Assembly (NCBI RefSeq): GCF_009829685.1
Contig: NZ_VWSD01000008.1
Coordinates: forward strand, 1-46,392
Source of the DNA: Cellulomonas citrea
GTDB taxonomy: Bacteria; Actinomycetota; Actinomycetes; Actinomycetales; Cellulomonadaceae
DNA length: 46,392 nt
Reading direction: 5' to 3'
In this document: one piece after another, positions 14,286-29,682 of the stretch
How the letters are laid out: the number at the start of each line of letters is the position of its first letter
How positions within the stretch are numbered: position 1 is the stretch's first letter
Position numbers and translations under genes: made by a program
The notes under the pieces: generated by a model
Seen by the model: the letters and a program-made list of their open reading frames with translations, nothing else
Database searches by the model: none
What the model was told of the DNA's origin: nothing

Positions 14286-14345
14286 TGACCTGCGTAAACG
14301 ATGGAGCGGGTGACGGGAATCGAACCCGCGCTCTCAGCTTGGGAA
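14286..14345 (-). repeat. attL-like copy: 3' half of tRNA-Gly plus flank
   Basis: This 60-bp segment matches 29623-29682 without gaps and with two mismatches (14294, 14295). Positions 14302-14345 are the T-arm, variable region and part of the anticodon arm of tRNA-Gly including the encoded CCA; the 5' half is absent. Identity continues 16 nt past the tRNA 3' end. This is the expected second attachment core after integration into the tRNA gene; the left flank 14161-14285 holds no gene. Confidence 0.9.
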
Positions 14346-14601
14346 ATCGACCCTGCCGGGCTTCTTGTCCTGCTGAGACGATCAAGATTGCTGGTCAGAG
14401 GCTTGCGCACACGCGCCGAGGTGAACCGAGAGGCGCCGATCTGATCGTGCTACAGGCACGTTGTGGCATGGCCTGTAGGGGCTGACTCTGTGGGTTCTTG
14501 CGTTGGTACTAGAGGGTGTGAGCGCGTAGGGAAGCTGGGCCGTCCTACGCTGAGAGGTCAAGACGGCGAGCGGGCGCGGCAGAGGTGTGGCCGGTGCTAA
14601 G
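14346..14601. other. Island left end, no gene seen
   Basis: About 256 nt between the truncated tRNA copy and the stop codon of the first island gene. I see no convincing frame, tRNA or recombinase here. An integrase gene would normally lie close to one end of such an element, but none is present. Confidence 0.6.
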
Positions 14602-15303
14602 TCACGCGTCCGGCCTTGACTCCGCCGGTTCGGGCGGTGGGGCAGGTCGCTTTGTTCGGACGGCGCGCCGGGGGGCCGGGCGCACCTGCCTTCCCGCAAA
14701 CAGCTCGGCCGCGCGGGCCAACTCCTCAGCCGCACTCGCGTACTGCTTGGCCTCCTCAGCGTCCGGCAAGTGCTCGCCGTGTGCGACCGCGTTCCGGAGG
14801 AAGTAGAGCTCGCGTACAGCTGCGACGAAGGTGTCGTTCACGATCCCCGCCCCGGCAAGGCTTCCCGCGAGTCGGATCACTGATGAGTGCGGCCTCGCCT
14901 CTAGCCCAGCCGACTCGTGGAGGTGACGGATGTTGGCTGCCAGGCGCTCCCACGACATGAGGACCGACGCCGTCGGTTCGATCTCCGGCCGAGCGCTGTG
15001 GCCGGGCTCAGGGCCGGTCTTTCCCTTCTCATCCTCGGCGAGGGCAACGGATGCCGCCGAGAGCTCGGTCGCTCGACCTAGGGACTGGTCGAAGTCCACC
15101 ACCTGCCCGGCGACTTCTACGCGCTTCACCCGCTGGATCAGTTCGCCTACTGGCTTCCGGAAGAGCAGGAAGAGAACCAGCACGACGACCGGCCAGGAGA
15201 GGACATGTCCGAGCAAGGTAGCCACAAACTCGCGCCAGTCCACGCCTAGAAGGTCCCACGGCGGTGTTCGTGAGCGCGGCGCGCCACGCCAGGGCACCTG
15301 CAC
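14602..15303 (-). CDS. Membrane-anchored HEPN-like protein
   Basis: A 233-residue protein with one membrane helix (about 33-49, VLSWPVVVLVLFLLFRK), a short linker and a helical C-terminal domain. That domain contains LYFLRNAVAHGEH, an R-x4-H motif (Arg170, His175) of the HEPN/DUF4145-like kind. HEPN domains with this motif are often RNases or RNA-binding modules in defence and toxin systems. The C-terminal tail is Arg/Pro-rich. GTG starts at 15303 and about 15240 are both possible; neither has a strong ribosome site. The family was not identified with certainty. Confidence 0.65.
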   Translation of the reverse strand: MQVPWRGAPRSRTPPWDLLGVDWREFVATLLGHVLSWPVVVLVLFLLFRKPVGELIQRVKRVEVAGQVVDFDQSLGRATELSAASVALAEDEKGKTGPEPGHSARPEIEPTASVLMSWERLAANIRHLHESAGLEARPHSSVIRLAGSLAGAGIVNDTFVAAVRELYFLRNAVAHGEHLPDAEEAKQYASAAEELARAAELFAGRQVRPAPRRAVRTKRPAPPPEPAESRPDA

Positions 15304-15346
15304 TTGGCCAGACGTGTCAGCCGAGAGGCGACCGCCGGGTGTCTGG

Positions 15347-15535
15347 CTATGCGACGGCGGACCGGTCCTCCTCGATCCCGTCGACGAGGCTCTGCAACGT
15401 TCGCGTCTGCAGTGCCGGGTCGTCCGCGGCCCGGCAACGGGAACTGACCAGCTCTCGCGGCTCCTTGGCGCGCACGAGCCGATCCGTCTCTGCCTTGGCG
15501 CGCCACGCCGCCGGCGAGTCCATGAGTGCTGCCAT
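15347..15535 (-). CDS. Short ORF or gene remnant, unknown
   Basis: A 62-codon frame starting at an ATG (MAALMDSPAAWRAKAETDRLVRAKEP) with a protein-like composition rich in charged residues and predicted helix. No strong ribosome site and no recognised family. It lies among gene fragments at the left end of the island and may itself be a remnant of a longer gene. Confidence 0.3.
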   Translation of the reverse strand: MAALMDSPAAWRAKAETDRLVRAKEPRELVSSRCRAADDPALQTRTLQSLVDGIEEDRSAVA

Positions 15536-15591
15536 CTCGGCCGCCGAGCATGCAGGTAGAGACCTCTGTGGTCCGCGACCGGACCCAGAAT

Positions 15592-15729
15592 CTAGTTGGC
15601 GCAGGCACCGATGCGGCAGCCAAGGCGGGTGGGGATGTCGCTGTACCCGAGTAGGGCCTCGGCCCGCTTCCTGCTCAGGGTGATCGCCAGCCCGGGGAGG
15701 TAGACGCCCTGCCACCGGCCGCCCTTCAT
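15592..15729 (-). pseudogene. C-terminal gene fragment cut by the yeiH duplication
   Basis: A minus-strand frame reads KGGRWQGVYLPGLAITLSRKRAEALL and ends in TRLGCRIGACAN before a TAG. It looks like real protein sequence, but its upstream part runs directly into the antisense of the yeiH fragment at 15726, so the N-terminal part of the gene has been lost at that junction. The family is not recognised. Confidence 0.4.
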
Positions 15730-15930
15730 CCCCGCGGCGGTGCACCCCGCGCTCAGCCAGGTCTCGGTGTTCCTCATCACCGTGGCGCTGTTGGCCATCG
15801 GCCTGTCCACCGACCTGGCCGGTCTACGCCGCGCCGGCCACCGCCCGCTGCTGCTCGGCGCGCTGCTGTGGGTCGTCGTCTCGCTCGCCAGTCTCGGGCT
15901 GCAGAGGGTGGCCGGGACGTGGTGAGGGGT
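15726..15930 (+). pseudogene. Truncated yeiH 3' end (copy B of the 205-bp repeat)
   Basis: This is the last ~66 codons, stop codon and 5 following bases of a yeiH gene, matching 10868-11072 with eight differences. In frame, six of the eight are synonymous and two change residues (Ser to Leu, Thr to Ala). The frame is intact but lacks everything upstream, so it cannot encode a transporter. The pattern points to a fragment of a functional gene from a related strain rather than a decaying local duplicate. Confidence 0.9.
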
Positions 15931-16119
15931 CGGGGCTGCGTGCGGTCTGCGTTCGACCGCGAGTAAGGCCGGAAGCCTGTCTCAAACCGCAGCCGCAGAC
16001 CTCGTGAGCGTCGGGCTGCGGCAGGTCGCTGGAGGGTTTGCCAGCCGTGGTCGTCGGTGTGAGCAGTGCCCGAACCACGCCAGCCCCGCGCCGCGCGGCC
16101 GGTCCTGGAGCTGCCCTAC
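15931..16119. other. Intergenic region with a hairpin
   Basis: No gene is seen. CCGCAGCC (15987-15994) pairs with GGCTGCGG (16014-16021) to give an 8-bp stem with a 19-nt loop. It lies downstream of the HNH gene stop and could be a terminator or the relic of one, although no T-run follows. Confidence 0.35.
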
Positions 16120-17118
16120 CTATCCCGTGATCTTGGCGCCCTTCGAGCGGTTGCACTTCCAGCAGAGGGTCTGGAGGTTCTCTGGGATGCTCTGCCCGCC
16201 CCTGGACACGGGGAGGATGTGGTCCACTTCAAGCAGCAGGTGCGGTTCCATGAACACCGAGACGCCACAGTTCCTGCAGGTGTGGTTGTCGCGTTCCTTG
16301 ATGTGGCTGCGGAGTCGCGTTGTCATCAGGGCGCGCTGCCCGGCAGCAGACTTGGTCCACCGGATCTTCTCGACGAGAGTCACCGACACTGCCTCGAGTG
16401 TTGGGGTGTCGAGCGCGATCTTCACCTGCTGGCTGCTGTTTCCCCCGGCAGAGACGTACTGGAACCTGTACTGGGGATAAGGCACCTCGACCGGCGACAG
16501 GTGCGCGCCAATCTGGTTCCAGTACTCCGCGCGGTAGTGCTTGAGGATGAAGGCAGGTGGATCAATCTTTGCCGTGATGTCGGCCTCGCGCCGCCTCACG
16601 TTGGCGACCGCCTCCTCGAGTCGGGCGATGTCATCGGCGACGCGCTGCACATCAGCGAGGGTGTCCTGGTCCGGCCGGATAGAGAAGTACTTCATCAGGT
16701 ACTTGATTGGGTCCGCGCTGGCGTTCCGCACGACCTGGAGCGATGCGTTATGCACGTGCGGGGCGTACTCGGCCACGTTGCGGTCGCGCCGATAGTTCCA
16801 CGCCGAGGTGTTGTCGAACGAGGCGAGGTGGGCATACTGGCCGCTGGACGATGACCCGAGTTCAAAGGCCCCCTGGGCACGAATCTCGTCCACGTAGTCG
16901 ACGACGTCGTTGTGTTCGGCGACCACCGCGGCGATCTCAGACTTGAGCGTCTGGAAGTGCTCAGAAGCGAAGTAGCGGTTCTTGCGGACGGTGCGGACGA
17001 TCGGGTTGGCGATGAGGACCGCGATGATTGCGGCCACCGTCAGCCCGAAGTTCCCAGTTGCCACTGGCACGACGATGACCGCAGCGAGAAGCATCAGAAT
17101 GAAGATCGGTACGGGCAT
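16120..17118 (-). CDS. Membrane-anchored HNH endonuclease
   Basis: A 332-residue protein. Two hydrophobic segments at the N-terminus (about 3-20 and 24-41) would anchor it in the membrane. A charged middle part with a likely coiled coil (about 175-205) follows. The C-terminus is a complete HNH nuclease domain: paired zinc ligands Cys281/Cys284 and Cys319/Cys322, the DH motif at Asp299/His300, Asn314 and the closing CNRSKG. A good GGAGG ribosome site precedes the ATG. HNH proteins of this layout are rare; within the defence island it may be an effector acting on incoming DNA at the membrane. That role is inference. Confidence 0.85.
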   Translation of the reverse strand: MPVPIFILMLLAAVIVVPVATGNFGLTVAAIIAVLIANPIVRTVRKNRYFASEHFQTLKSEIAAVVAEHNDVVDYVDEIRAQGAFELGSSSSGQYAHLASFDNTSAWNYRRDRNVAEYAPHVHNASLQVVRNASADPIKYLMKYFSIRPDQDTLADVQRVADDIARLEEAVANVRRREADITAKIDPPAFILKHYRAEYWNQIGAHLSPVEVPYPQYRFQYVSAGGNSSQQVKIALDTPTLEAVSVTLVEKIRWTKSAAGQRALMTTRLRSHIKERDNHTCRNCGVSVFMEPHLLLEVDHILPVSRGGQSIPENLQTLCWKCNRSKGAKITG

Positions 17119-17274
17119 GGGCGCTGCCTCCGAATCCGGCTGGTGCTCACAGGCTAGGGGTAGGCCGCCGCGCCCGTCGACTGAATGCTAGGTGACTTGC
17201 AGAAGGTCGTTCCAGAACACCAGACGACCCGTTGGCAACAGCCTCCGTGGCCCGCTCCTTGCTGGATCGCCGAC

Positions 17275-17556
17275 CTAGAACCTCGGAAGAGACAGGAGGT
17301 TGTCCGTCCACGTGCCGTTGGCGAATGTTCGGAGGTACGGCGTCCCACCTTGTGGCTTCACCACCCCGACCTCGACCTTGCTCGTGGACGTCTCGACGTA
17401 GACCTTCCCGTCCTCCACGTCGATGAACCTCACCATGTCGGCCTTCGTGCTCTGCCCCGTGCTGCCGTCGCCGTAGGAGGTCCACTTCACGTCCGTGATG
17501 TGCTCGTTGAGGTACCCGCCCTGCGACAGGTGTACAGCTACGACCCTGACTGCCAT
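17275..17556 (-). CDS. DUF3892 domain protein
   Basis: A 93-residue protein. The pattern ITDVKW near the start, a central short strand region, and the C-terminal block PYLRTFANGTWTDNLLSLPRF match the DUF3892 family, small proteins of unknown function often found on mobile elements and near defence genes. The ATG at 17556 has an AGGAG ribosome site; the longer upstream frame is rejected. A perfect 19-bp palindrome lies 17 bp upstream of the start. It is separated from the HNH gene by about 156 nt with no other feature. Confidence 0.8.
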   Translation of the reverse strand: MAVRVVAVHLSQGGYLNEHITDVKWTSYGDGSTGQSTKADMVRFIDVEDGKVYVETSTSKVEVGVVKPQGGTPYLRTFANGTWTDNLLSLPRF

Positions 17557-17573
17557 GGCACTGCTCCTCTCAG

Positions 17574-17592
17574 TTGGCGAACCGTTCGCCAA
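17574..17592. promoter_or_regulatory. Perfect 8+8 palindrome upstream of the DUF3892 gene
   Basis: TTGGCGAA-CCG-TTCGCCAA is a perfect inverted repeat immediately upstream of the DUF3892 ribosome site. Its position suggests an operator for an unknown repressor; alternatively it could form an RNA hairpin in the leader. Confidence 0.55.
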
Positions 17593-17639
17593 GATCAGAG
17601 TCGCAGGCGCCTCCGACATCGCCGCGCTCTGTCGAGTCA

Positions 17640-17907
17640 AGTGACCTCACCAGGCCGGGGCGGGGCGTCGATTTCGTCAGCGACGTGCCGGGCGTCCCCG
17701 ATCCGGGGCACCAGACGAGCGGGTGGAGCAGGTCCTCGAGGTTGATGCGGCGGATGCGGACGACGTGGGCACCGGTCTTGACGGCGCGGGGCCGGCAATC
17801 TCGGACAGCTCGGCATGCGTGGTGGCAAGGCCCCGCTGGGGCCTCGCGGCCGGTGGAGCAGGTCGGCGCGAAGAGGCGTGCACCTCAAGGGCGCAGGTGC
17901 CGATGGT
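17640..17907 (-). pseudogene. Probable degraded gene remnant
   Basis: The ~270 nt between the DUF3892 promoter and the ATPase stop hold no intact gene. On the minus strand two frames read like protein in succession, LATTHAELSEIAGP and then, after a frame change, AVKTGAHVVRIRRINLEDLL, HPLVWCPG. This suggests a frameshifted, truncated gene. The family is not recognised. Confidence 0.3.
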
Positions 17908-19173
17908 TCAGGGCCCGAGCGCCCCGATCGGGATGGTGACGACTCCGTCGGGCCGGGTGAGGCCGTAGCCGTTCGAGGTGATCACGCCGAGCACGGCGGG
18001 TGGGCCGACCTTGTCGGTGTCGACCTTGGCGGCGAACTTCAGCAACGACGTTGCGGCCGTGTCGATCTGGCCTGCGCCGAGCTTGACCTCGAAGGCGCCC
18101 CAGGTGCCGTCGCGAGCCTCGACGACGATGTCGACCTCGAGGTTGTCGGAGTCTCGGTAATGGCTCACCGTGGCGTCGAGCGCATCGGCGTAGACGCGCA
18201 TGTCGCGGACGACGAGCGACTCGAAGAGCAGGCCGAGGGTGTTGAGGTCGCGCACGAGCGTGGCCGGGCTCGCATCCAGCGCAGCCGCAGCGAGCGAGGG
18301 GTCGACGAGGTGTGTCCGGGGCTTGTCCCGCAGCCGCGATCGTGAACGCAGGTGCGTCGACCACGCGGGCTGCAGCTCCAGCACCATGAGACGAGCCAGG
18401 GCGTCCTGGTACCGGTAGGCCGTCGGTCTGGTGAGCGAGCCGGCGTCGTCCGGGGTGTCGGAGATCGTCTCGCCGACGAGGCGCTCGACGACGTGCTCCA
18501 TCGCGGTGTTGCGCGCGAGCGCCTGGAGGAACCGGGTCACGCGGACGGGGTCACGGCGCGACCCGGCGACGCGTGCGAGGTCGACCTCGGCGATCGTGCG
18601 CAGGTGGTCGCGGTTCGCTGCGGCGGCCTGCGTCGGGGTCATCGGGAGGTTGAGCGGCCAACCGCCGCGGACGATGAGCTCGGCGGTGCGGTGGATGTCG
18701 ACGTCGGCGGCCGGCGCCGACGGTCGCTCACCGGCGAGCAAGGCCCGCAGAGACATCGACCCCGTCGAGTCACGCGACTCGAACAGGCTCATCGGTCGCA
18801 TCATCAGGCGCGCGAACCGGCCGGCGCCGGAGTGCCGGCGGGCGTCGTCGTCGGGAACCGAGGACCCGGTGAGGACGAACTGACCGGCCGCCTGACGCGT
18901 GTCGACCTGGGCGCGAACCTGGTTCCAGACGCGGGTCGCGTCGAGCTGCCACTCGTCGACCAGCTGCGGCGGCTCGCCACCGAGGACGAGCGAGGGGTCC
19001 ACCTGGAGGGCCGTCAGGGCGCTCTCGTCACGGTCGAGGTAGACGGCGCTGCGGGTGGCCTGCTCCGCGGTACGGGTCTTCCCGCAGGCGCGCGGTCCCT
19101 CGATGAGGACCGCGCCGGTCGATGCGAGGCGGTCGGCGAGCAGCTCATCGGCGATGCGTGGCAGGTAGTCCAT
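17908..19173 (-). CDS. ATPase with C-terminal DUF4143 nuclease-like domain
   Basis: A 421-residue AAA-type ATP-binding protein. Walker A is GPRACGKT (26-33), Walker B LVDEWQ (Asp73/Glu74), and the sensor segment is FVLTGSS. The C-terminal DUF4143 region has a PD-(D/E)xK-like pattern, LEVDIVVE followed by FEVKLG (Asp348, Glu362, Lys364), as in related predicted nucleases. These proteins are widespread on accessory DNA; the cellular role is unknown, with toxin or defence functions proposed. The ATG is preceded by a GGGAG site. Confidence 0.88.
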   Translation of the reverse strand: MDYLPRIADELLADRLASTGAVLIEGPRACGKTRTAEQATRSAVYLDRDESALTALQVDPSLVLGGEPPQLVDEWQLDATRVWNQVRAQVDTRQAAGQFVLTGSSVPDDDARRHSGAGRFARLMMRPMSLFESRDSTGSMSLRALLAGERPSAPAADVDIHRTAELIVRGGWPLNLPMTPTQAAAANRDHLRTIAEVDLARVAGSRRDPVRVTRFLQALARNTAMEHVVERLVGETISDTPDDAGSLTRPTAYRYQDALARLMVLELQPAWSTHLRSRSRLRDKPRTHLVDPSLAAAALDASPATLVRDLNTLGLLFESLVVRDMRVYADALDATVSHYRDSDNLEVDIVVEARDGTWGAFEVKLGAGQIDTAATSLLKFAAKVDTDKVGPPAVLGVITSNGYGLTRPDGVVTIPIGALGP

Positions 19174-19409: not shown

Positions 19410-19431
19410 TCTGACCTGGGAAAACGATGGA
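19410..19431. repeat. Partial third copy of the att flank
   Basis: TCTGACCTG then 3 nt then AAACGATGGA equals the sequence at 29622/29623-29643 that spans the tRNA-Gly 3' end, with only the three central bases different; the same motif is at the 14286 copy. Similarity ends within the first bases of the tRNA. A second TCTGACCTGGG follows at 19450-19460. It may be the scar of an older element end. The neighbouring bases up to 19522 hold no gene. Confidence 0.5.
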
Positions 19432-19522
19432 AGCTGGTTCCGGAAAGGGTCTGACCTGGGGTGATGCGCGCTCACGCCGATTCGCTCCACAAACGAAGGG
19501 GAGTCTGTCCCACAGCCGCAGG

Positions 19523-20533
19523 TCAGCGCGCCGCCCGTCGTCCAGCCGGCGGCGGGACGTGCTGCCAGAGGTCAAGGTCCTTCCATCCCTCAGGGAAGCC
19601 CATCATGTTCGTCGGCGTCATACCGTGTGAGCCGGGGAACTTGCCGATGACCGTGGCGAACTGTCGTGGCCAGTTAGTAGCCGGGTCCAGACAGATGAGG
19701 ATGTACGCCGTGATCGCGGCAAGGAAGTAGAGCCGGTTGTTGTCGACGGTCGCCAGGTGGTGCAACCGCGCGCCGGTCAGGTTCGCCGCGGGCACCCGCG
19801 GGGGGTAGACCGTCGCCCTGTTCCAGATCCGAGCGTTGTGTGCGCAGTGGTTCCGCAGGACGTTGAGAGCCTTGAGCCATCCATGCAGCACGTCGCGGTT
19901 CTTGATGCCAAGGTTCGTCGCGATGACTCCGGCGTCTCGCGAGCTGAGCAGGCCGTAGAGCGCCGTCAGACAGCCGAAGGTCATGAACTCGGTGGCTGCC
20001 CAGATGGGGATGTCTCCGTCGTACTTGAGTAGGAAGTGCCTGACGAAGTCCTCGGTCTTGGACTCGCTGAGGAGCTTCTCGTAGCGACTGAGCCAGTCCT
20101 CGTAGCGAGTCCGCGCGCCCCCGAAGCCGTCCGTCACAACCTCTGCGCAGCGCGCAGCATCGAGGTGCTCCACCTTGAGGTGTCCGTGGGCGTGCGTCTT
20201 GCCCAGCTGGTAGGCGACTTGGACTCGAAGACCAAGCTCGACCTGCTGCAGGCCCGTCAGCAGCACGCCTCGCAACTTGTCGTCGAAGTCGCTGAGCGCG
20301 ACAGCCTGCTCGAGAGTTGCGCCCTCGACGAACGTGTCGAGCCGAGAGGGTCGCTGGCCGGCGGCGGTAGGCGCGCCCGGCTGCCGCAGCACGTAGGTGT
20401 ACGCCGAGAGCCGGTAGTAGCCGATCCGTTTGAGTGCTCGCACTGCGGCCGGAGCGTGATCGATGGCCAGGCCCCTGCTCCGAAGGAGCTCCCCCTGCTC
20501 GTTGTAGTTCAGGTGCGGTTTGGCGTATTTCAC
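19523..20533 (-). CDS. Abi_2 family abortive infection protein
   Basis: A 336-residue protein of the AbiD/AbiF (Abi_2) family. The N-terminal signature is LKRIGYYRLSAYTYVLRQ (about 33-50). The C-terminal HEPN-type motif is LRNHCAHNARIWNR with Arg227 and His232 (R-x4-H). Abi_2 proteins abort phage infection, probably through RNA cleavage. The GTG at 20533 (VKYAKPHLNYNEQ) agrees with where family members begin; the 20 residues upstream are rejected. It is the first of the rightward defence genes after the 19410 scar. Confidence 0.88.
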   Translation of the reverse strand: MKYAKPHLNYNEQGELLRSRGLAIDHAPAAVRALKRIGYYRLSAYTYVLRQPGAPTAAGQRPSRLDTFVEGATLEQAVALSDFDDKLRGVLLTGLQQVELGLRVQVAYQLGKTHAHGHLKVEHLDAARCAEVVTDGFGGARTRYEDWLSRYEKLLSESKTEDFVRHFLLKYDGDIPIWAATEFMTFGCLTALYGLLSSRDAGVIATNLGIKNRDVLHGWLKALNVLRNHCAHNARIWNRATVYPPRVPAANLTGARLHHLATVDNNRLYFLAAITAYILICLDPATNWPRQFATVIGKFPGSHGMTPTNMMGFPEGWKDLDLWQHVPPPAGRRAAR

Positions 20534-20768
20534 GGTGCGTCCCCGCACACGAAAACCGACCCATCGGTGCCGGTGACGCGAAGTCGGTGGCACCCAGAGG
20601 GGTCGGTGTTGATGCCATCACGGTACCCGATCAGCGCTCGACTGGCAGCGTGAACTCTGTCACGGAACCACAACGACTCCAGATGGGGTGTGCCCACCGC
20701 TTCGCGGCGAGCGATCGGCGGGCGGTGAGCCCGTGGGGATGCGGGTGTCCGTCGCGTGCGCGGTTCGA

Positions 20769-21161
20769 TCATCGTTGGCGCCGTAGCGTCTGAAGGAGCT
20801 CACCGCTGGACGACACCGTCCAGAAGGTCAAATCACTGCGGCTTGGGTTGACGCTTGGCCGGTAGTGCGTGACGACGGAGATGGCTGCGCCGCTGGGACT
20901 CTTGTAGGACTCACCCGCGAGCGGGCCCTCGGTGATGGTGACCCTGTGTGTGGCTGGCTCGTACGTCGCTGTTGTCCGGTGACCCTCGTAGAGGGCGAAC
21001 ACCGCCACTGTCGCACTCGCGGCTCGGTCACCTTTCGGCGCCGCTTCCGGCCGGTGCCGCTTGATGAGGCGGCGTACCACCTCAGCTTCGCTGATGCCGG
21101 CGGTGTCCGCGGCGAGCTGGAGCGCCGCAGCAGTGTGATCGTCAGCTTCGATTGTCGGCAT
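20769..21161 (-). CDS. Small protein with RAMA-like C-terminal domain
   Basis: A 130-residue protein. Residues 1-35 look like a short helical segment (TAAALQLAADTAGISEAEVVRRLIKRH), possibly ribbon-helix-helix-like. Residues 55-127 contain VTITEGPLAGESYKSPSGAA, then LTFWTV and LLQTLR. This order (SPSaAA, fW, L..LR) resembles RAMA domains associated with restriction enzymes and adenine methylases. The start ATG at 21161 has GGAGGGG; the upstream extension is rejected. It diverges from the membrane PLD-like gene at 21328. Function is unknown; DNA or modified-base recognition is inferred. Confidence 0.65.
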   Translation of the reverse strand: MPTIEADDHTAAALQLAADTAGISEAEVVRRLIKRHRPEAAPKGDRAASATVAVFALYEGHRTTATYEPATHRVTITEGPLAGESYKSPSGAAISVVTHYRPSVNPSRSDLTFWTVSSSGELLQTLRRQR

Positions 21162-21315
21162 CTGGCCCCTCCGCGTCGACCTGTCCTTGCTACGAAAACT
21201 GCTATCGGGTCTGCCGGTCGTCAACCAGATGCTGCGGACCGCCTCGCCAACGGCCGCGTCTTCCTGCTCCATGCGCCTCACCCAGTGGGCCGTGTGCCTT
21301 GTTGCTGCACACGGC

Positions 21316-21327: not shown

Positions 21328-22071
21328 ATGGGATCCAGCGGTAGCGTCCGGCGCGCGATGACGAACCTCCGGATGATGCTCGTCGGCGCGTTCTTCGCCG
21401 GCGTCGGTCTTCTGCTCCTGTGGTGGTCAAGTGGCGCTGTGTCGCCCCAGTTGTCTGCCTTCACCGGGCAGCTCGGCGGGCTGCTGGTCGCAACCGGTCT
21501 GCTGAGCGTCGTCTGGGAGCTTGTTGGACGACGAGCGCTGGTCAAGGAAGTCCACGACGTCGTACGCCTCAACGAGGAGGTGGTCGACGCAGGCATCGTG
21601 CGGGTCCCACGCCGGTTCTACGAGGACACGCCATGGAGCGACCTGTTTCGCGACGCCAAGGACGTTGACATCTTCGTCGCCTACGCGCGGGCGTGGCGGA
21701 ACCAGCATCAGGCTGAGCTGAAGGCTGTCGCCAAGCGCGGGCGCCTCCGAGTGTTCCTGCCCGACCCGAACGACCCGGCGACGGTCGGGCGGCTCCAGGC
21801 TCGATTCGACTACCCCGAAGCAGCCGACGGTGTCCGGCAGGCTGTCGAGTGGTTTCGGAAGCTGGGACCGAACGTCGAGGTCTACTTGCACAAGGGTGAC
21901 GGCCTGTTCACGTGCTACCGCTTCGGGTCTACGGCGGTGCTCGCGCTCTACACCCACGGCACCGACTCCCACATGGACGTGCCGACCTTCGTCGCCCGCG
22001 ATGGTGCGCTCCACCGCTTCATTGAAGGGGAGATCGCCGCGATTTCGGCCGTGAGCAGACCAGCGCCGTGA
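21328..22071 (+). CDS. Membrane protein with phospholipase-D-like domain
   Basis: A 247-residue protein with two membrane helices (about 17-33 and 44-64). The cytoplasmic domain resembles a single PLD-type fold: VDIFVAYARAWRN, RVFLPDPNDP, VEVYLHKG and TAVLALYTHG in order. The usual HxK(x4)D is not intact (LHKGD is the nearest), so it may be inactive as a nuclease or a divergent form. It diverges from the RAMA-like gene and is convergent with hsdR. Because it combines a sensor-like neighbour with a membrane effector, it is a candidate defence component; that is inference. Confidence 0.65.
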   Translation: MGSSGSVRRAMTNLRMMLVGAFFAGVGLLLLWWSSGAVSPQLSAFTGQLGGLLVATGLLSVVWELVGRRALVKEVHDVVRLNEEVVDAGIVRVPRRFYEDTPWSDLFRDAKDVDIFVAYARAWRNQHQAELKAVAKRGRLRVFLPDPNDPATVGRLQARFDYPEAADGVRQAVEWFRKLGPNVEVYLHKGDGLFTCYRFGSTAVLALYTHGTDSHMDVPTFVARDGALHRFIEGEIAAISAVSRPAP

Positions 22072-22132
22072 CCCCGAGACGCCATATCGGCAGCCCCGTG
22101 CGCCCGCCTCGCGCAGGGAGGCCAGCTGGCCC

Positions 22133-25090
22133 CTACGCGCTCTTGCCGTAGGTCTGCCGGAACACGGCATCCGCCAGCCAGGCGCGGAAGCTGTCGTTGT
22201 CGCTGAACTGCTTGAAGAGCTGGGTCTCGTCTCGCATCATCGACAGCACCACCCTGCCCAGGGCCTTGTCGAGCTCGATGCGGGCGTTGACCGGATCGTT
22301 GTTCTTCTGGGCGTTCTGGTAGGCGACGTCCTCGGCGACCCTCGCGGGGATCTCCTCGGTGATGCGCTTACGAACGCGGTCGGCGTCGTCCCACTCGATG
22401 TTGCCGAACTGGTCGTTGAAGGACTCCAGGATCAGCGAGAGGCGCTCGAGGTCGGGGTCAGGCCTCACCCCGCCGCCGGCGGACGGGACGGGGTCGAGCT
22501 CGCCGTCCTCGTCGGCCAGCGCGATCGCCATGGCGGTGCGCTTCTCCACTCGGTAGGAGTCCATGTCGATGGTCTCCAGGATCCCGGCGGACAGGTCGTC
22601 CTCCTTGGGAGCGGGGAGCTTGGGCACGAGGAAGTCGAGGAAGATCGACAGCTTCTCCCACTCGACATTGGAGTACGGCAGGATCGCCGAGAGGAACCCA
22701 TAGGTTCGCAGCAACGCCTTGGCTGAGCCCTTGAACGCGACCTGGTCGTCCTCGTCGAGGTGCTCGATGTACTCGGCGGCGCACGCGTCAAGCAGCGGGT
22801 CGAGCTGGTCGCGAGGTGCACCGGCCAAGTACTTCTCGACGAAGGTGTCGACGTGCTCCGGCGTGTACACACCGGACGCGCGCAGTTCGCCCGCCAGGTC
22901 GTGGAGCTTGTTGGGGTCGGTCTCCTCGGCCAGCACTGTGGTGCGGTAGTAGGGCGCGAACGACAGCTCGATCGCGTCGGCGTCGTTGGCGAAGTCGAGG
23001 ATCGCCACGTCGCGCTTGTCGGGGTGGGCGCGGTTGAGCCGCGAGAGGGTCTGCACCGCCTTGACCCCGGAGAGGGTCTTGTCCACGTACATGGTGTGCA
23101 GCAGAGGCTCGTCGTAGCCGGTCTGGAACTTGTCCGCGCAGACCAGGATCCGGTAGGGGTCTTCACGGATGCGGTCGGGGATGTCCTTGCTGGGGAATCC
23201 GTTGTAGTCGGACTCGGTGACCTTGAATCCGCCGCGTTCGGTGTCGGAGAACGCCACGATTGCTCGGTAGGGGCTCTTGCGCTCGATCAGGTAGGCGCTG
23301 ATCGCCTCGTAGTAGTCGATCGCCCGATCGATGCTTGAGGTGACGACCATTGCGCGCGCCTGGCCTTTGATCTTCTGCTTGGCCAGGACCTGGGTGTGGA
23401 AGTGGTCGACCATGATCTCGGCCTTGAGCCGGATCGCGTGGCGGTTGGACTCGACATAGGCGCGCAACTTCTTGGAGGCGCGGCCCGCGTCGAACTCCGG
23501 GTCGTCCTCGACGGTCTTGACGAGCTTGTAGTAGCTGTCCACCGGGACGTAGCTGGCCAGAACGTCTAGGATGAAGCCCTCGCCGATGGCCTGCTTCATC
23601 GTGTATGCGTGGAACGGGCGGTGCCCGGTCGTCCCGTCCGGCTGGGGGAACGGCACTCCGAAGGTCTCAAGGGTCTTGTTCTTCGGGGTGGCGGTGAATG
23701 CGAAGTACGACGCATTGGCCGGCATCTTCTTGGCCGCCACGAGCCGGTTGAGCTGGTCCTCGACCTCCTCACCGTTCACCGGCGGGAGCCCTTCCGCGGA
23801 CAGTGCGGTGGCCAGTGCCGCGGTCGCCTTGCCGCCCTGGCTGGAGTGGGCCTCGTCGATGATGATCGCGAACCGGCGGTCTCGGTGGGCGGTGCCGAGG
23901 TTGGCAACGATGTAGGGGAACTTCTGCACCGTGGTGACGATGACCTTCTTGCCTGCCTCGATCGCGGTGCGCAGGTCGGCGGACCGGTCGGCGTGCACGA
24001 CCGTGGAACCCACCTGGGTGAACCCCTTGATGGTGGCCTCGATCTGACGGTCGAGGATCTTGCGGTCGGTGACGACGATGACCGAGTCGAACGCTGGCGC
24101 TCCCTCGTAGCGAGCGGTGGTGAGTTGGTGCGCGAGCCACGCGATGGAGTTGGACTTGCCGCTGCCGGCCGAGTGCTCGATGAGGTAGCGCTGGCCCGCG
24201 CCCTTGGCTTCGACGTCGGCGAGCAGGCGCCGCACGACGTCGAGCTGGTGGTAGCGAGGGAAGATCTGGGCGCTGGTCTTCTTGCCCGTCTGAGGGTTCT
24301 TGACCGTGACGATCTGGGCGTAGCTCTCGATGATGTTCGCCAGCGACGCTGGGGCGAGGATGCGCCGCCACAGGTAGTCGGTGGCGATCCCGTCGGGGTT
24401 GGGCGGGTTGCCGGCGCCGTCGTTGAAGCCCTGGTCGAACGGCAGGAACCATGACGCCTTGCCGGCCAGGCGCGTGCAGAACCGGACCCTGTGATCGTCG
24501 ACGGCGAGGTGGGCCATGCATCGACCGAACCCGAACAGCAGCTCCCGCGGGTCCCGGTCGCGCTTGTACTGCTCGACGGCCTCCTCGACGGTCTGCTTGG
24601 TGATGGAGTTCTTCAGCTCGAACGTCAGCAGAGGCAGACCGTTGACGAACACCGCCAGGTCCAGGGCGCGGCCGGTGTCGGTGGGGCTGTAGCGCAGCTG
24701 GCGGGTGACGGTGAACCGGTTGAGGGCGAACCGCCCCGCTGCGCGCTCGTTCCCCGGGGTAGGGCTGGGGTAGTACAGGTCGATGGTGTGTGGGCCGTGC
24801 TGCACGCCGTTGCGCAGGGCGGCCACCCCACCGCGCTTGGTCAACTCGCCCTGGAGTCGGGCGAGGAACGAGCGTCGAGTGGTCGAGTCGTGTCCCAGGT
24901 CGAGCGCGTCTGCCGTGGCGGGTTGGGTGGCCTGGAGGAACGCAGTGAGCTGGGCCAGGTCCACCGCGTGCGCACGGTCGTAGTCGCCGGGGTCGCCCTC
25001 GACCCAGCGCACCGCGTTGCCCGCGGTGTCGCCGGTCATCTGGGCCACGATCAGCGCTTCGAGGCTCGCCTCATTCAGGCTGGTGACCAT
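22133..25090 (-). CDS. hsdR: Type I restriction enzyme subunit R (HsdR)
   Basis: A 985-residue motor and nuclease subunit that translocates DNA and cuts at a distance from the recognition site. The N-terminal PD-(D/E)xK nuclease has LDLAVFVNGLPLLTFELK (Asp144, Glu158, Lys160). The helicase has Walker A SAGSGKS (307-313), DEAH (412-415) and later SF2 motifs such as QTGYDEPLL. A C-terminal helical region would contact HsdM/HsdS. Length is normal for the family. It is the last gene of the operon and overlaps rhuM by 20 nt. Confidence 0.95.
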   Translation of the reverse strand: MVTSLNEASLEALIVAQMTGDTAGNAVRWVEGDPGDYDRAHAVDLAQLTAFLQATQPATADALDLGHDSTTRRSFLARLQGELTKRGGVAALRNGVQHGPHTIDLYYPSPTPGNERAAGRFALNRFTVTRQLRYSPTDTGRALDLAVFVNGLPLLTFELKNSITKQTVEEAVEQYKRDRDPRELLFGFGRCMAHLAVDDHRVRFCTRLAGKASWFLPFDQGFNDGAGNPPNPDGIATDYLWRRILAPASLANIIESYAQIVTVKNPQTGKKTSAQIFPRYHQLDVVRRLLADVEAKGAGQRYLIEHSAGSGKSNSIAWLAHQLTTARYEGAPAFDSVIVVTDRKILDRQIEATIKGFTQVGSTVVHADRSADLRTAIEAGKKVIVTTVQKFPYIVANLGTAHRDRRFAIIIDEAHSSQGGKATAALATALSAEGLPPVNGEEVEDQLNRLVAAKKMPANASYFAFTATPKNKTLETFGVPFPQPDGTTGHRPFHAYTMKQAIGEGFILDVLASYVPVDSYYKLVKTVEDDPEFDAGRASKKLRAYVESNRHAIRLKAEIMVDHFHTQVLAKQKIKGQARAMVVTSSIDRAIDYYEAISAYLIERKSPYRAIVAFSDTERGGFKVTESDYNGFPSKDIPDRIREDPYRILVCADKFQTGYDEPLLHTMYVDKTLSGVKAVQTLSRLNRAHPDKRDVAILDFANDADAIELSFAPYYRTTVLAEETDPNKLHDLAGELRASGVYTPEHVDTFVEKYLAGAPRDQLDPLLDACAAEYIEHLDEDDQVAFKGSAKALLRTYGFLSAILPYSNVEWEKLSIFLDFLVPKLPAPKEDDLSAGILETIDMDSYRVEKRTAMAIALADEDGELDPVPSAGGGVRPDPDLERLSLILESFNDQFGNIEWDDADRVRKRITEEIPARVAEDVAYQNAQKNNDPVNARIELDKALGRVVLSMMRDETQLFKQFSDNDSFRAWLADAVFRQTYGKSA

Positions 25091-26114
25091 CGCCCGGTTC
25101 CCCCTGTGTCAGGTGCCGCTCGGCTTCGAGCAGCGCATCAAGGTCACTGATCTCATCGGCCGCTGCACGCTGGGACTCCAGCTCGCGGCGCTGGGCGTCC
25201 CACTCGGCGTACCGCTCGGCCACGATCTGCTCGACGTGGCTGTGCGCCACCGACCCGGCGCCGGTCAGCACCGGGTACTCCTGGAACTCAACGAACCGAT
25301 CAGTCTGCGCGACCCAGTCCGCCATCGACGTCGTCTGCCGCCGGCGGGCCCGCCCCTCGGCGAAGTCCAGGAACTGGGTCGTCAGCAGGTTCAGGTCACT
25401 CACCTCCGCTTCGGTGAGGTAGTTCTTCGCGACCGAGGCGTCGGTCTTGCGCGGGCGGTCGCCCTTCCAGGTCGTCAGGCCCAAGGTGCCCGATGCCGGG
25501 TCGCATCGTTCACGGATCAGCTCCCCGGCAGTGCGGCCCGTGACGGCGTGCAGGAGCTTGTTCTGGATGGTCGCGAAGAACGTCCTGGCGAGGTCGCTGG
25601 TGCCGTCGTAGTCCGCACTCGTGGTCGCGAAGAGGTCGCGGACCTTGAGGTAGAACCGCTTCTCCGAGGCCCGGATGTCGCGGATGCGTTCGAGCAGCTC
25701 GTCGAAGTAGTCAGCGCCCGGGTCCTTGAGTCGCTCGTCCTGTAGCGCGAAGCCCTTTACGAGGTACTCCGTCAGGACGGTGGTGGCCCACTGGCGGAAC
25801 TGGACGGCCCTCGCGGTCGTGACCCGGTACCCGACGGCCAGGACCATGTCGAGGTTGTAGATCTTCAGCTCGCGACGGACCTGGCGCGTGCCCTCGGTGC
25901 GAACCATCAACTCAGAGTTGACGGTTGACTCGTCGACCTCCCCGTCGGCGAGTACCCGGGCGATGGTCTGCTGGACGTTCTGAGCCGAGGTCCCGTAGAG
26001 ATCGGCCATCTGGGCCTGAGTGAGCCATACCGTCCCGCCGACCGCGCGCAGCTGAACCACCGAGCCACCGTCATCGGCCCGGTACAGGATCAGCTCACCG
26101 GCGAGTTCACTCAC
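25071..26114 (-). CDS. rhuM: RhuM family protein inside the type I R-M operon
   Basis: A 347-residue RhuM-type protein. The N-terminal virulence-RhuM domain is clear: VWLTQAQMADLYGTSAQNVQQTI, then the NSELMVRTEGTRQVRRELK region and IYNLDMVLAVGYRV. The middle resembles a Fic/Bro-like helical region, and the C-terminal part carries charged helices (AEWDAQRRELESQRAA). RhuM genes frequently lie in type I R-M operons, but their role is unknown. The GTG start overlaps the hsdS stop (GTGA) and its end overlaps hsdR by 20 nt, so it is fully embedded in the operon and coupled to it. Confidence 0.9.
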   Translation of the reverse strand: MSELAGELILYRADDGGSVVQLRAVGGTVWLTQAQMADLYGTSAQNVQQTIARVLADGEVDESTVNSELMVRTEGTRQVRRELKIYNLDMVLAVGYRVTTARAVQFRQWATTVLTEYLVKGFALQDERLKDPGADYFDELLERIRDIRASEKRFYLKVRDLFATTSADYDGTSDLARTFFATIQNKLLHAVTGRTAGELIRERCDPASGTLGLTTWKGDRPRKTDASVAKNYLTEAEVSDLNLLTTQFLDFAEGRARRRQTTSMADWVAQTDRFVEFQEYPVLTGAGSVAHSHVEQIVAERYAEWDAQRRELESQRAAADEISDLDALLEAERHLTQGEPGDGHQPE

Positions 26115-27418
26115 GCGTCGACGTCCTCCAAGAGCTCTGCAGCCTCGTCGACAAGATCATCGTCCATGCCACCGACATCGGCGGTGACCTCGTCCGGAGC
26201 CAGGTCAGGGAGCGTCGCCGAGATGTGCCGCACGTCGACCTGACCGGTGACGACATCGGACGTCAGGCGGGTCCGGAACTCGCGCAGCAGGCCGATCTCG
26301 CGTAGGACGGCTGATCTTGCCGCATCGGCACGCACGGCTTCCGCTTCAATCCGATTGACGATGTCGCGCTGCTCGCTGAGCGAAGGGAGTTCGATGGGGA
26401 ACGACGAAAGCACGGGCAGTCGCAAAGACTCCATGGTGACGGTGTTGCTCTGGGATAATGCAAAGCGGCGAAAATGTGTTGACAGATACCAGTAGAAGAA
26501 GCGCCCATCGACACCGTCGAAGTCTGAGAAGATGTAGACGCGCTGATGGGCCTGGAACTTGCCATTGAAGTAGTGGAAGACCTTGCCCACCCCACCCTGG
26601 CCGTCGCCCGGCGTCATCACGGCCTCGGTGTCCATCAAGAAGCCGCGCGCACGGAGAATCTCGCGACCACGCACGAAAAACGGGTACTCACCCTCGGGAT
26701 CAGCGTTCCCCGAGTCCTCGACGCCCGTTGAAATCTTGCATAGACGCCCGGCGGAGACACGTCGCCAGCCCGTGGAGTCTCCATCTGATGTGGACGTCAG
26801 GAGGCGCCTGGTCAAGGCCTGATGTTGCTCATCGATCAGACCGCTAAGGCGCCGCTTGGCGGCGATGGCGCGGTCGATGCGGCGGTGGGCGTGGGCGAGG
26901 TACTTGACGATCGCCGCCTGCTCGTCGCGTGACGGAAGCGGAACTGGGTCGCGCGCAAGACGCGGGTACTCGATGTTCTGGCCCTCCCGGATCCCCGTCA
27001 CGGTCAGGGTCAGCGCGTCAACGAAAGGCCGCGACTTGAAGAGTAGCGTCAGGTAGTCCGCATCAGCTGGCTCGCGGGATTCGAGGACTGTGTAGGCAGG
27101 GCTGATGATGCCCCGGGCGTGGGCGCGCTCGATTCCGCCTTGAAACGAGCGGAGGCTGATGACGAAGTCGCCGACCTCGACCAACTTGAGCAGGTCGAGG
27201 TCCTTCTGTGCCGTGACGGTCCTCGACCCGTAGTCGGCCTTGCGGATCACCCCGCGGGACTGGGTCGCGGCGAGAAGCGGCTCGTCTGGGAACCCGCGTA
27301 CGTTCTTCTCGGTCAGAACAGTCTTGAGTCGCGGAGATGCCCAGTGACTGGGCAATCGTGGCAGCCATGGCGTGCCAGAGCCCCGATAGGACTCGTGCGG
27401 CTTGAGCTCGCTGAACAT
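26111..27418 (-). CDS. hsdS: Type I restriction-modification specificity subunit (HsdS)
   Basis: A 435-residue specificity subunit with two target-recognition domains and two helical spacers. TRD1 is about residues 1-165 and ends with the spacer DPVPLPSRDEQAAIVKYL, the typical LPxxxEQxxIv motif. TRD2 is about 215-370 and ends with FPIELPSLSEQRDIVNRI. Each TRD reads one half of a bipartite DNA target. The start ATG overlaps the hsdM stop (TGATG). The C-terminal tail is unusually long and acidic (DDDLVDEAAELLEDVDA). Confidence 0.93.
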   Translation of the reverse strand: MFSELKPHESYRGSGTPWLPRLPSHWASPRLKTVLTEKNVRGFPDEPLLAATQSRGVIRKADYGSRTVTAQKDLDLLKLVEVGDFVISLRSFQGGIERAHARGIISPAYTVLESREPADADYLTLLFKSRPFVDALTLTVTGIREGQNIEYPRLARDPVPLPSRDEQAAIVKYLAHAHRRIDRAIAAKRRLSGLIDEQHQALTRRLLTSTSDGDSTGWRRVSAGRLCKISTGVEDSGNADPEGEYPFFVRGREILRARGFLMDTEAVMTPGDGQGGVGKVFHYFNGKFQAHQRVYIFSDFDGVDGRFFYWYLSTHFRRFALSQSNTVTMESLRLPVLSSFPIELPSLSEQRDIVNRIEAEAVRADAARSAVLREIGLLREFRTRLTSDVVTGQVDVRHISATLPDLAPDEVTADVGGMDDDLVDEAAELLEDVDA

Positions 27419-29391
27419 CAGCCAACGATCTCGCTGAGCAGGGTGTCGGTCTTGGCTTCGAGGGCGCGGATGTCGGCTCGGATCTCGTCCAGCGTGCGGA
27501 GCGGTGTCGGCTTGTAGAAGTGCTTGGTGAAGCTGATCTCGTAGCCGATCTTCGTCTTGGTCTCGTCCACCCAGGCGTCGGACGCGTAGGGCAGCACTTC
27601 GCGTCGGATGAACGCCTCGATGCCGTCGCGCCACTGCCCTGCGGGCTCGGTGAGCGGGATCTGCTCGGTGTCGCGCAGATCGGTGTCGGGCTCGTACTCG
27701 ACCACTCGGGTGTGCCCGTCGATCGTTGCCTCGAACCGGCCGAGCACCGGGTCAGCCGGGGTGCCGGCCCGGTGCACCTTCTTGATGACCGGCGCGGCGG
27801 TCTCGTCGCGCTCGGCGGACTCCTTGAGCTTGCGGATCTCGGCGGCGGTGTAGACCCGTCCGGCCTCGACGCCGGCGAGCCGCAGCGGCCGCTCCACCAC
27901 GACCTTGGAGTACCCGAAGTCGGCGTTTTCGAACACCTTGGAGCGCTCGTCGTTGGCACCGTCGAACGCGAGGAACGTTGCGACCACATGGTCGATGTCG
28001 GCTGCGGACAGCTCGCAGTTCTTCTTGCCGAGGTTCTTGCGCAGCGGGGTGGACCAGGCGCTTGCGTCGATGAGCTGGACCTTGCCCTTGCGGTGGGCGG
28101 GCTTGCGGTTGCTCAGCACCCACACGTAGGTGGCGATGCCGGTGTTGTAGAACATGTTCAGCGGCAGGGCGACGATGGCCTCGAGCCAGTCGTTCTCGAT
28201 GATCCAGCGGCGGATGTTGGACTCGCCCTGGCCGGCGTCGCCGGTGAACAGCGACGAGCCGTTGTGGACCTCGGCGATGCGGCTGCCGAGCGGGGTCTTG
28301 TGCTTCATCTTCGAGACCAGGTTGGCCAGGAAGAGCAGCTGGCCGTCGCTAGACCGTGTGATTAGCGAGTACTCGGGGTCGCCGTCGTGGGTGACGACGA
28401 AGCGTGGGTCGCGGATGCCGGTCTTGCCGCCCATGCGGTCGAGGTCGGTCTTCCAGGACTTGCCGTATGGGGGGTTGGAGAGCATGAAGTCGAACTCCAT
28501 GCTCGGGTAGGCGTCGTTGGACAGGGTCGACCACTCGGGCCCGCCGACGACGTCGTCGGCGGCCTGGCCCTTGCCCTTGAGGATGAGATCGGCCTTGGCG
28601 ATGGCGTAGGTCTCGGCGTTGATCTCCTGGCCGTACAGGTGCGTCGAGACCTGGATGCCTCGCGCCGCGGTGAGTCCTTCGAGGGTCTCCTCGGCGACCG
28701 TGAGCATGCCGCCAGTACCCATCGCGCCGTCGTAGAGCAGGTACGTGCCCGAGGGGATCTGGTCGGCGATCGGCTCAAACATCAGCCGCGTCATCAGCCG
28801 CACAGCGTCACGCGGGGTCCAGTGCTCGCCGGCCTCCTCGTTGTTCTCCTCGTTGAAGCGGCGCACCAGCTCCTCGAACACCGAGCCCATGCCGTGGTTG
28901 TCCAGGCCGCCAGGGTTGGCTGCGGTGCGGGGGGAGACGTCCAGGGAGGGGTCGAGGAACTTCTCGATGAGCGCACCCAACGCGTCGGCCTTGGTCAGAC
29001 GTGGGATCTGGTTGCGGAACTCGAAGTTGTCGAGGATCTCCTGGACGTTCGGAGAGAAGCCGTCCAGGTAGGCCTCGAAGTCGGCCCGGAGCTGGGCCTG
29101 GGATCGGGCGGCCCGCAGGTCGCGCAGAGTGAATGGCGAGGTGTTGTAGAAGTCCTGCTCGGCCGCCTGGCGCAGAGCGGCGTCCTGGTTATCGATCCCG
29201 CTGTTGTCCAGCGCAGACTTCATCGTCAGGACGGCCTTCTTGGTCGGCTCCAGAACGCTGTCCAGGCGCCGCAGCACCGTGAAGGGAAGGATGACGTCGC
29301 GGTACTTGCCGCGTACGTACAGGTCGCGCAGCACGTCGTCGGCGATGCCCCAGATGAACGAGATGATCTTGCTGTGGGTGCTGCTGTTCAC
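27418..29391 (-). CDS. hsdM: Type I restriction-modification methyltransferase (HsdM)
   Basis: A 657-residue N6-adenine methyltransferase. The N-terminal HsdM helical domain (residues 8-130) is followed by the catalytic domain: GEHWTPR (188-194), AdoMet motif I DGAMGTGG (221-228) and catalytic NPPY (306-309). With HsdS it methylates the target; with HsdR it completes the restriction complex. I chose the GTG at 29391, preceded by AAGGAG; the in-frame extension to 29634 would run over the promoter region. First gene of the operon, close to the tRNA end of the island. Confidence 0.95.
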   Translation of the reverse strand: MNSSTHSKIISFIWGIADDVLRDLYVRGKYRDVILPFTVLRRLDSVLEPTKKAVLTMKSALDNSGIDNQDAALRQAAEQDFYNTSPFTLRDLRAARSQAQLRADFEAYLDGFSPNVQEILDNFEFRNQIPRLTKADALGALIEKFLDPSLDVSPRTAANPGGLDNHGMGSVFEELVRRFNEENNEEAGEHWTPRDAVRLMTRLMFEPIADQIPSGTYLLYDGAMGTGGMLTVAEETLEGLTAARGIQVSTHLYGQEINAETYAIAKADLILKGKGQAADDVVGGPEWSTLSNDAYPSMEFDFMLSNPPYGKSWKTDLDRMGGKTGIRDPRFVVTHDGDPEYSLITRSSDGQLLFLANLVSKMKHKTPLGSRIAEVHNGSSLFTGDAGQGESNIRRWIIENDWLEAIVALPLNMFYNTGIATYVWVLSNRKPAHRKGKVQLIDASAWSTPLRKNLGKKNCELSAADIDHVVATFLAFDGANDERSKVFENADFGYSKVVVERPLRLAGVEAGRVYTAAEIRKLKESAERDETAAPVIKKVHRAGTPADPVLGRFEATIDGHTRVVEYEPDTDLRDTEQIPLTEPAGQWRDGIEAFIRREVLPYASDAWVDETKTKIGYEISFTKHFYKPTPLRTLDEIRADIRALEAKTDTLLSEIVG

Positions 29392-29425
29392 TGGGCATTG
29401 CTCCTTGCGGTGGTGCGCGGCTCGT

Positions 29426-29439
29426 GAGACGCGCGTCTC
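29426..29439. promoter_or_regulatory. Perfect palindrome upstream of hsdM
   Basis: GAGACGC-GCGTCTC is a 14-bp perfect palindrome 34 nt upstream of the hsdM start. It may be the operator that delays or limits expression of the R-M operon; no controller (C) protein gene is visible, so the regulator is unknown. Confidence 0.45.
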
Positions 29440-29622
29440 GGGGAAGCCTAGCCAGTTGCTCGCGGTGGAGCAGATCGCGCCGTCCGATGCGCTCGACTGA
29501 CCTCGGATACGAGTGAGAGGGGCCGCGTCGAGTGTCTCGGCGAGCGGGTCAGGGAAACGGGCTGGACCTGGCAGACGGGATCGTTGGCCGCTCCAGGCGC
29601 CGAAGCGGCCGCCCCGGATCTC

Positions 29623-29682
29623 TGACCTGCACAAACGATGGAGCGGGTGACGGGAATCGAACCCGCGCTCTCAGCTTGGGAA
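29623..29682 (-). repeat. attR-like core overlapping tRNA-Gly
   Basis: The 60-bp partner of 14286-14345. It covers the 3' half of the tRNA-Gly gene and 16 nt beyond. Because the tRNA is intact here and only its 3' half is at the left copy, the island inserted into the tRNA 3' half and restored the gene. Confidence 0.9.

Follow-up and report, generated by a model that had tools for sequence, protein, structure and literature searches.

Several described systems come close to the one reported here. Cis-mobilizable elements (CIMEs) and their tandem accretion with integrative mobilizable elements (IMEs) have been defined (PMC5704250), Islander-type genomic islands carry an intact tRNA gene at one end and a displaced 3' fragment of it at the other (PMC4383910), and 18 of the defence hotspots described in the Escherichia coli pan-genome lie in tRNA loci (PMC10121019). 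RhuM-like and Abi2-family genes also occur within restriction-modification (R-M) loci (PMC3710099). Here, we analyzed 46,392 nucleotides of Cellulomonas citrea (contig NZ_VWSD01000008.1; hereafter, the window), in which a 15.3-kb block of largely defence-type genes (14286-29682) adjoins a tRNA-Gly(CCC) gene. We consider it likely that this region is a composite, integrase-less, CIME-type island, set into the 3' half of the tRNA gene by at least two successive tyrosine-integrase insertions, the integrase having since been lost. What we could read directly from the sequences is a long repeat, a displaced tRNA half, genes of defence families, the lack of an integrase match, a hotspot at the same tRNA in relatives and, in two of these, an occupied/empty pair. 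The kind of element is already known; the site, its core and the integrase association are useful new detail. The following features define the ends and the interior core of the region.

29639..29712, minus strand: intact tRNA-Gly(CCC), the target gene (ARAGORN; Rfam RF00005, 72 bits)
29623..29682, no strand: tRNA-side attachment copy, the 3' half of the tRNA, starting at the anticodon loop, with 16 bp beyond it (direct-repeat search)
14286..14345, no strand: distal attachment copy, the displaced 3' half of the tRNA (identical over positions 31-74) with 16 bp beyond it (repeat search and tRNA match)
19412..19447, no strand: internal core copy, with the exact motif at 19412-19430 and a decayed tRNA-like end; proposed relic junction (motif search and alignment)

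The two outer copies form a 60-bp direct repeat (58/60 identical, 97%; 15,337 bp from start to start); with a seed of 14, no other direct-repeat family of 25 nt or longer was found within 13500-30500. One copy lies in the only tRNA gene of the window, and the left copy is identical to that gene over positions 31-74, so that both mismatches fall in the 16 bp past the tRNA end. A first-pass annotation made from the sequence had described this repeat, with its two mismatches and with one copy in an intact tRNA gene and the other a 3' half in the same orientation, and all of this was borne out. Its proposal of site-specific integration at the tRNA 3' end held as far as the target is concerned, but the crossover appears to lie at the anticodon loop and not at the 3' tip. 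The anticodon occupies tRNA positions 33-35, position 31 is the first base of its loop, and the start of the displaced piece (positions 31-74) at this base coincides with the crossover of one class of tRNA attachment sites, class A, which is placed at the anticodon loop (PMC4383910). In its intact tRNA, same-orientation fragment and class A crossover the region resembles an Islander-type island; unlike those, it has no integrase gene, of which the filters given in PMC4383910 require one for each member of a tandem array.

A dispersed repeat, named beforehand as grounds for giving up the island, was ruled out. A search of the source assembly (3.4 Mb in 434 contigs; listed completeness 99.9%, contamination 0.23%) with the 60-mer returned four rows, namely the two copies and short matches of 31 and 43 bases inside other tRNA-Gly genes, with no other near-full copy. 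Along similar lines, the predicted steps in composition were found: the G+C content was 0.745 in the left flank, 0.679 in 14346-19411, 0.660 in 19431-29622 and 0.725 in the right flank up to 39000, and the G+C content at third codon positions (GC3) was 0.95 and 0.97 in flank genes (n=9 and n=2) versus 0.88 in the genes of both parts of the region (n=2 and n=6). The flank gene adjoining the boundary (13201-14160) likewise had a GC3 of 0.88.

Six-frame profile searches of the window's contig gave no match to an integrase (PF00589) or to the relaxase families TrwC (PF08751) and Relaxase (PF03432), an absence that the annotation had not mentioned. No other transfer family appeared among those open reading frames (ORFs) that were scanned. 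The region therefore lacks the integrase and relaxase of an autonomous IME or integrative and conjugative element, as judged by one integrase and two relaxase families, and combines retained attachment (att) sites with missing integration and transfer genes, as a CIME does. Layers that were probably stacked at a single tRNA, with a proposed relic site separating them, would be a further likeness to CIMEs and tandem accretion as defined in PMC5704250; unlike in that definition, the internal site of the island is decayed, and its excision or mobilization in trans is hypothetical. The integrase appears to have been lost and not lacking from the outset.

In order to place the site in the genus, we turned to relatives. 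The tRNA sequence was matched in all 81 Cellulomonas genomes searched (the source genome included), and the DNA downstream of it was examined in 77 of the 80 others (G266, G267 and G270 were left out), all of which read the anticodon CCC. The stretches available were shorter than 5 kb in 7 genomes, 5-18 kb in 11, 18-20 kb in 58 and 27.8 kb in G012, so longer islands would be missed. A displaced tRNA 3' half was found in 4 of the 77, at 16.7 kb in G027, 9.3 kb in G243, 4.8 kb in G258 and 4.7 kb in G010. This half starts at tRNA position 31 in G010, as it does in G377 (found with its own tRNA as the query) and G351 (with the tRNA of another genome), and at positions 26, 29 and 39 in G258, G027 and G243, respectively; the G402 locus showed no such half. 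In G028, a tRNA match of 14 nt (E 0.004) was dismissed as chance. The cargo differed from genome to genome: a type IIG/ISP restriction enzyme and a NYN protein in G258, a GmrSD-type protein, a cytosine methylase and a PIN protein in G243, Mrr-type and PIN proteins in G010, Avs2 in G007 (where the 8.4 kb available showed no displaced copy), and a TrwC-type relaxase and a UvrD-type helicase in G027. G258 and G001 form a clean occupied/empty pair at the same tRNA; their tRNA starts coincide, and positions 26-253 and 237-4054 of G001 match 4840-5065 and 5118-8964 of G258 at 96% and 98%.

By these comparisons, the tRNA-Gly(CCC) site is a hotspot in Cellulomonas. It resembles the E. coli hotspots of PMC10121019 in that one locus holds different defence systems in different genomes, and differs from them in the host group, in the tRNA and in that the island is integrase-less. 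A counterpart within the genus is the G027 element, which has the same tRNA, a displaced tRNA half and a DUF4143 ATPase; unlike the island, it keeps an integrase and a relaxase and resembles an IME. In a literature search on Cellulomonas genomic islands, tRNA and integrase, no paper on this site was recognized by its title and the start of its abstract, which is no evidence of wider novelty.

The relatives closest by their flanks, G012 and G260, share both flanks with the window. The DNA in common reaches the tRNA 3' end on one side and the 3' end of an ABC-2 gene on the other, and the interval between measures ca. 15.5 kb in the window, 24.9 kb in G012 and 2.8 kb in G260. Metabolic and regulatory genes were found among nine ORFs scanned in the G012 interval; in G260, where both flanks stand on one 8.8-kb contig, it holds a transporter-like and a TetR-like ORF (by eye). 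The same place thus holds three different contents. The tRNA-Gly(CCC) genes of G012 and G260 (L042 and L177) were 88% identical to that of the window, though the flank stretches were 86-93% alike; the differences lie in both halves of the tRNA and include paired changes (by eye).

Of 12 island proteins compared with the DNA downstream of the tRNA in the 77 relatives, the DUF4143 ATPase alone had a match. It adjoins the tRNA in G001 and G021, where no displaced tRNA copy was detected; for this one gene, this comes near to the situation named in advance as contrary evidence, close relatives with the same genes at this locus but without the truncated tRNA copy. DUF4143 proteins occurred in 28 of the 81 genomes. 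The only DUF4143 match of G001, G258 and G021 lies less than 7 kb from tRNA-Gly(CCC), and copies downstream of this tRNA were also found in G032 (2 of 2), G262 (3 of 3), G027 (1 of 2, inside its island), the window (1 of 2) and G012 (2 of 4, at 23 and 27 kb); the remaining genomes carry theirs elsewhere or past the DNA examined. Four genomes (G004, G254, G255 and G256) had 8-17 DUF4143 matches each versus 0-4 in the other 77 of the genus. G032 (L081) and G262 (L084) share a run of gene clusters spanning ca. 10 kb beside the tRNA, with DUF4143 ATPases on both sides.

Within the region, the outer motif TGACCTGNNNAAACGATGG revealed a third core that the first-pass annotation had not noticed. At up to two mismatches, the motif has three copies in the 3.4-Mb assembly, at 14286, 19412 and 29623, all on one strand; the reversed pattern has none in the assembly, and 100 shuffles of the window gave none. 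Exact TGACCTGNNNAAACGATGG was present in 3 of 197 further genomes sampled evenly across the order, none with a tRNA in the 3-kb locus; the exact core is therefore not order-wide. The core at 19412 probably divides the region into two insertions of ca. 10.2 and 5.1 kb. We read it as their old junction because 19170-19480 matches the stretch from the tRNA end to the ATPase in G001 and G258, aligning with the tRNA 3' end, the core and the block preceding the ATPase. The window's DUF4143 ATPase itself has a 94% identical copy in G001 and G258, where it comes after either the tRNA or a displaced half of it. Two layers, in the order given below, are the most likely arrangement, and the single insertion event assumed earlier is probably wrong.

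An incoming circle carrying a tRNA 3' half and the outer core would recombine at the anticodon loop, restore the tRNA and push the resident 3' half outward, and each further insertion would repeat this. Tyrosine integrases specific for glycine tRNAs would have carried out at least two such insertions in succession. The older layer (ca. 14286-19430) would have brought the DUF4143 ATPase, DUF3892 and HNH genes, and the younger (ca. 19412-29682) the type I R-M operon with rhuM, a membrane protein with a phospholipase D (PLD)-like fold and AbiD. The integrase would have been lost after the insertions, so that excision would need one supplied in trans, which may be possible.

Several observations weigh against this account. 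The tRNA half at the 19412 copy is decayed and, taken alone, does not stand above shuffles (550 of 1,000 reach its score), and the stretch preceding the ATPase in G021 aligns poorly with that of the window. The exact empty site of the island, in which position 14285 was predicted to run straight into a single core and then the sugar operon, did not turn up downstream of tRNA-Gly(CCC) in any of the 77 relatives, the closest of which hold 24.9 and 2.8 kb of other DNA there, nor through eight further loci of a named-genome scan (six scanned for tRNAs and four compared). In G012, the better-matching ATPase (73%) has no core and stands past both the ABC-2 and the TetR gene, and the 24.9-kb interval holds a distant one (33%) near its far end; the ATPase is thus not always tied to the att site. 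A tblastn search of the window with the G027 integrase found no remnant (best E 0.14), and the acting integrase is therefore one that we infer. Finally, RhuM, the molecular function of which is stated to be unknown in PMC7449626, is for that reason counted among the defence genes by inference.

Some room is left for a single 15.3-kb element that integrated once, in which the core at 19412 would serve for binding inside the element or be a relic that arose by chance: no full-length repeat was seen apart from the outer copies, and the internal one has no clearly recognizable tRNA half. We hold this to be unlikely, since all three motif copies of the genome fall in this region in one orientation, the alignment of 19170-19480 with the G001/G258 tRNA junction runs through both the core and the block before the ATPase, and three genomes of the order hold pairs of the integrase family discussed below, with 5-13 kb between the members. 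The whole interval could instead have been swapped by homologous recombination in the flanking genes, the tRNA repeat being left over from an older event. Such an exchange would suit the different DNA that the window, G012 and G260 hold between the same flanks, as well as the stretch at 15713-15943, which repeats part of a flank gene at 93% identity; it is very improbable given that the breakpoint is the tRNA 3' end in all three, that the window's displaced half starts at the anticodon loop and that G258 and G001 make a clean pair. That foreign DNA was joined to the flanks by an error of assembly or binning, as 434 contigs might suggest, is hardly credible with the listed completeness and contamination, with both junctions inside one contig and bearing the expected repeat, and with displaced tRNA halves in other genomes, including the single-contig G258.

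For the composite island, a probable cognate enzyme family is suggested by the relatives. The integrase of G027 (442 amino acids [aa], with PF00589 and an Lsr2-like DNA-binding match) adjoins tRNA-Gly(CCC), and an integrase stands beside this tRNA in 5 of the 77 relatives, with an open gene in G027 and G007, a broken one in G243 and N-terminal remnants in G258 and G001. In the genus, the G027 integrase had eight matches at E <=1e-40, in 7 of 81 genomes: the three best (61-100%; G027, G007 and the broken G243 gene) lie beside tRNA-Gly(CCC), the fourth (47%, G020) lies beside tRNA-Gly(UCC), and the four weaker, partial ones have no tRNA within 1.5 kb. In the order, 16 loci in 13 of 396 genomes were found at E <=1e-60 (at most four candidates were scored per genome). 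Eleven adjoin a tRNA-Gly (7 CCC and 4 UCC) at a distance of 151-402 bp; of the other five, three are second members of pairs and two lie near a contig end, with 23 and 407 bp of upstream DNA, in the latter of which a tRNA could have shown and none was seen. A looser CAGGT or CTGGT follows 13 of 15 tRNA-Gly/integrase junctions (read by eye), and CATCGTTTNNNCAGGTCAGAG, at up to six mismatches, was present in 19 of 78 Cellulomonas post-tRNA sequences (window included) versus ca. 0.08% of random places. The G027-type tyrosine integrases are the probable cognates of the island's sites. In a set of 17 loci (L189 and L194-L209), an integrase with an Lsr2-like insertion stood beside a tRNA-Gly of CCC or UCC type in 12.

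The source genome's own integrases were rejected as cognates (three of its five PF00589 loci were compared, at 27-30% identity over the main stretch), and the G027 integrase had no match there at E 1e-40. Contig C111 of this genome (ca. 51983-53564, L175) carries a TrwC match and an integrase match ca. 0.4 kb apart, a possible IME; this integrase was discarded because it is only 29% identical to that of G027.

The locus adds a well-resolved Cellulomonas defence hotspot, for which the attachment core, the point of crossover, a probable cognate integrase and an occupied/empty pair are at hand. It illustrates how defence genes may accumulate at a tRNA without a retained integrase, and the att sites and integrase, which are linked to two glycine tRNAs, offer a pair that can be tested. 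A wider idea, which we put forward tentatively and regard as rather doubtful, is that integrases with the Lsr2-like insertion act order-wide as dedicated loaders of defence genes into glycine-tRNA genes, leaving stacked, integrase-less blocks that can be remobilized; the DUF4143 ATPase would be a recurrent resident with a role perhaps tied to the site, such as maintenance or defence selected at each turnover.

Outward from the tRNA, the gene order is hsdM, hsdS, rhuM, hsdR, the oppositely oriented gene of a membrane protein and AbiD up to the core, and then the DUF4143 ATPase, DUF3892 and HNH proteins, a flank-gene fragment and an ORF of 233 aa.

27418..29391, minus strand: hsdM, type I DNA methyltransferase, 657 aa, NPPY motif (HsdM_N and N6_Mtase on the longer ORF 27418-29634; start from the gene caller)
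26111..27418, minus strand: hsdS, specificity subunit, 435 aa (Methylase_S; PADLOC Specificity_I on a longer ORF)
25071..26114, minus strand: rhuM-family gene within the hsd operon (PF13310, E 1.6e-98; PADLOC candidate PDC-S05)
22133..25090, minus strand: hsdR, type I restriction subunit, 985 aa, with D...ELK, SAGSGK and DEAH motifs (family and PADLOC matches, motifs)
21328..22071, plus strand: membrane protein, two N-terminal helices and a predicted PLD-like fold (no family; model pLDDT 84.5; Foldseek)
20769..21281, minus strand: ORF of 170 aa, no family, doubtful gene (passed over by the gene caller)
19523..20593, minus strand: Abi_2/AbiD abortive-infection protein, R-x4-H motif (PF07751, E 7.2e-44; PADLOC AbiD; PDB chain 8vz6_A by sequence)
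17908..19173, minus strand: AAA_14/DUF4143 ATPase, recurrent at tRNA-Gly(CCC) (family match; PADLOC candidate PDC-S01)
17275..17640, minus strand: DUF3892 protein (family match)
16120..17118, minus strand: HNH endonuclease-type protein with an N-terminal hydrophobic segment (family match)
15713..15943, plus strand: gene fragment, a 93% copy of 10857-11086, the 3' end of the PF03601 gene at 9955-11067 (sequence match)
14602..15303, minus strand: ORF of 233 aa, doubtful gene (unmatched in Pfam, NCBIfam and PADLOC; a single weak PHROG match of unknown function; passed over by the gene caller)

HsdM, HsdS and HsdR are all present as open genes with catalytic motifs, as in a type I R-M system, and the hsdS start overlaps the hsdM stop; the NCBIfam models for hsdR and hsdM match below their cut-offs. 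We take D...ELK, Walker A, DEAH and NPPY to be type I enzyme motifs; the R-x4-H motif of AbiD and the hydrophobic start of the HNH protein were read by eye. Several distinct defence-type systems adjoin one another (type I R-M, AbiD and the PADLOC candidates PDC-S01 and PDC-S05), as expected of a defence island, and by its gene families the island would serve defence. The view that nearly all genes are of a defence, nuclease or toxin type proved largely right but somewhat strong, since no defence family was matched by the ORFs 14602-15303, 17275-17640, 20769-21281 and 21328-22071, and 15713-15943 is a fragment.

The AbiD family is placed in the HEPN group, with predicted RNase activity (PMC3710099). 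As in the R-M loci with RhuM-like and HEPN proteins described there, rhuM lies inside the hsd operon with an AbiD-family gene nearby; unlike in those loci, AbiD is separate, beyond the PLD-fold gene, and no PrrC-like protein was present among the ORFs scanned. Searches by sequence returned no solved structure for the DUF4143 ATPase or RhuM, and a literature search on DUF4143 with AAA ATPase and defence found no paper. The membrane protein had no match in Pfam, NCBIfam, PADLOC or PHROGs; in Foldseek, its model matched PLD-type folds, including the bacterial Nuc and NucT as well as FAM83 and TrmB, with E values down to 1e-6 but low query TM-scores of 0.34-0.44 among the 27 matches at E <=0.001. 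It belongs to a family of two-helix membrane proteins with a PLD-like fold and without a named domain, of which 25 were found.

The window has a second stretch of low G+C content (39001-42000; 0.618), in which the ORFs 39604-40119, 40770-41597 and 41653-42363 are without a Pfam or PHROG match. Inside the island, the 231-bp fragment at 15713-15943 has the same orientation as the matching 3' end of the PF03601 gene in the left flank.

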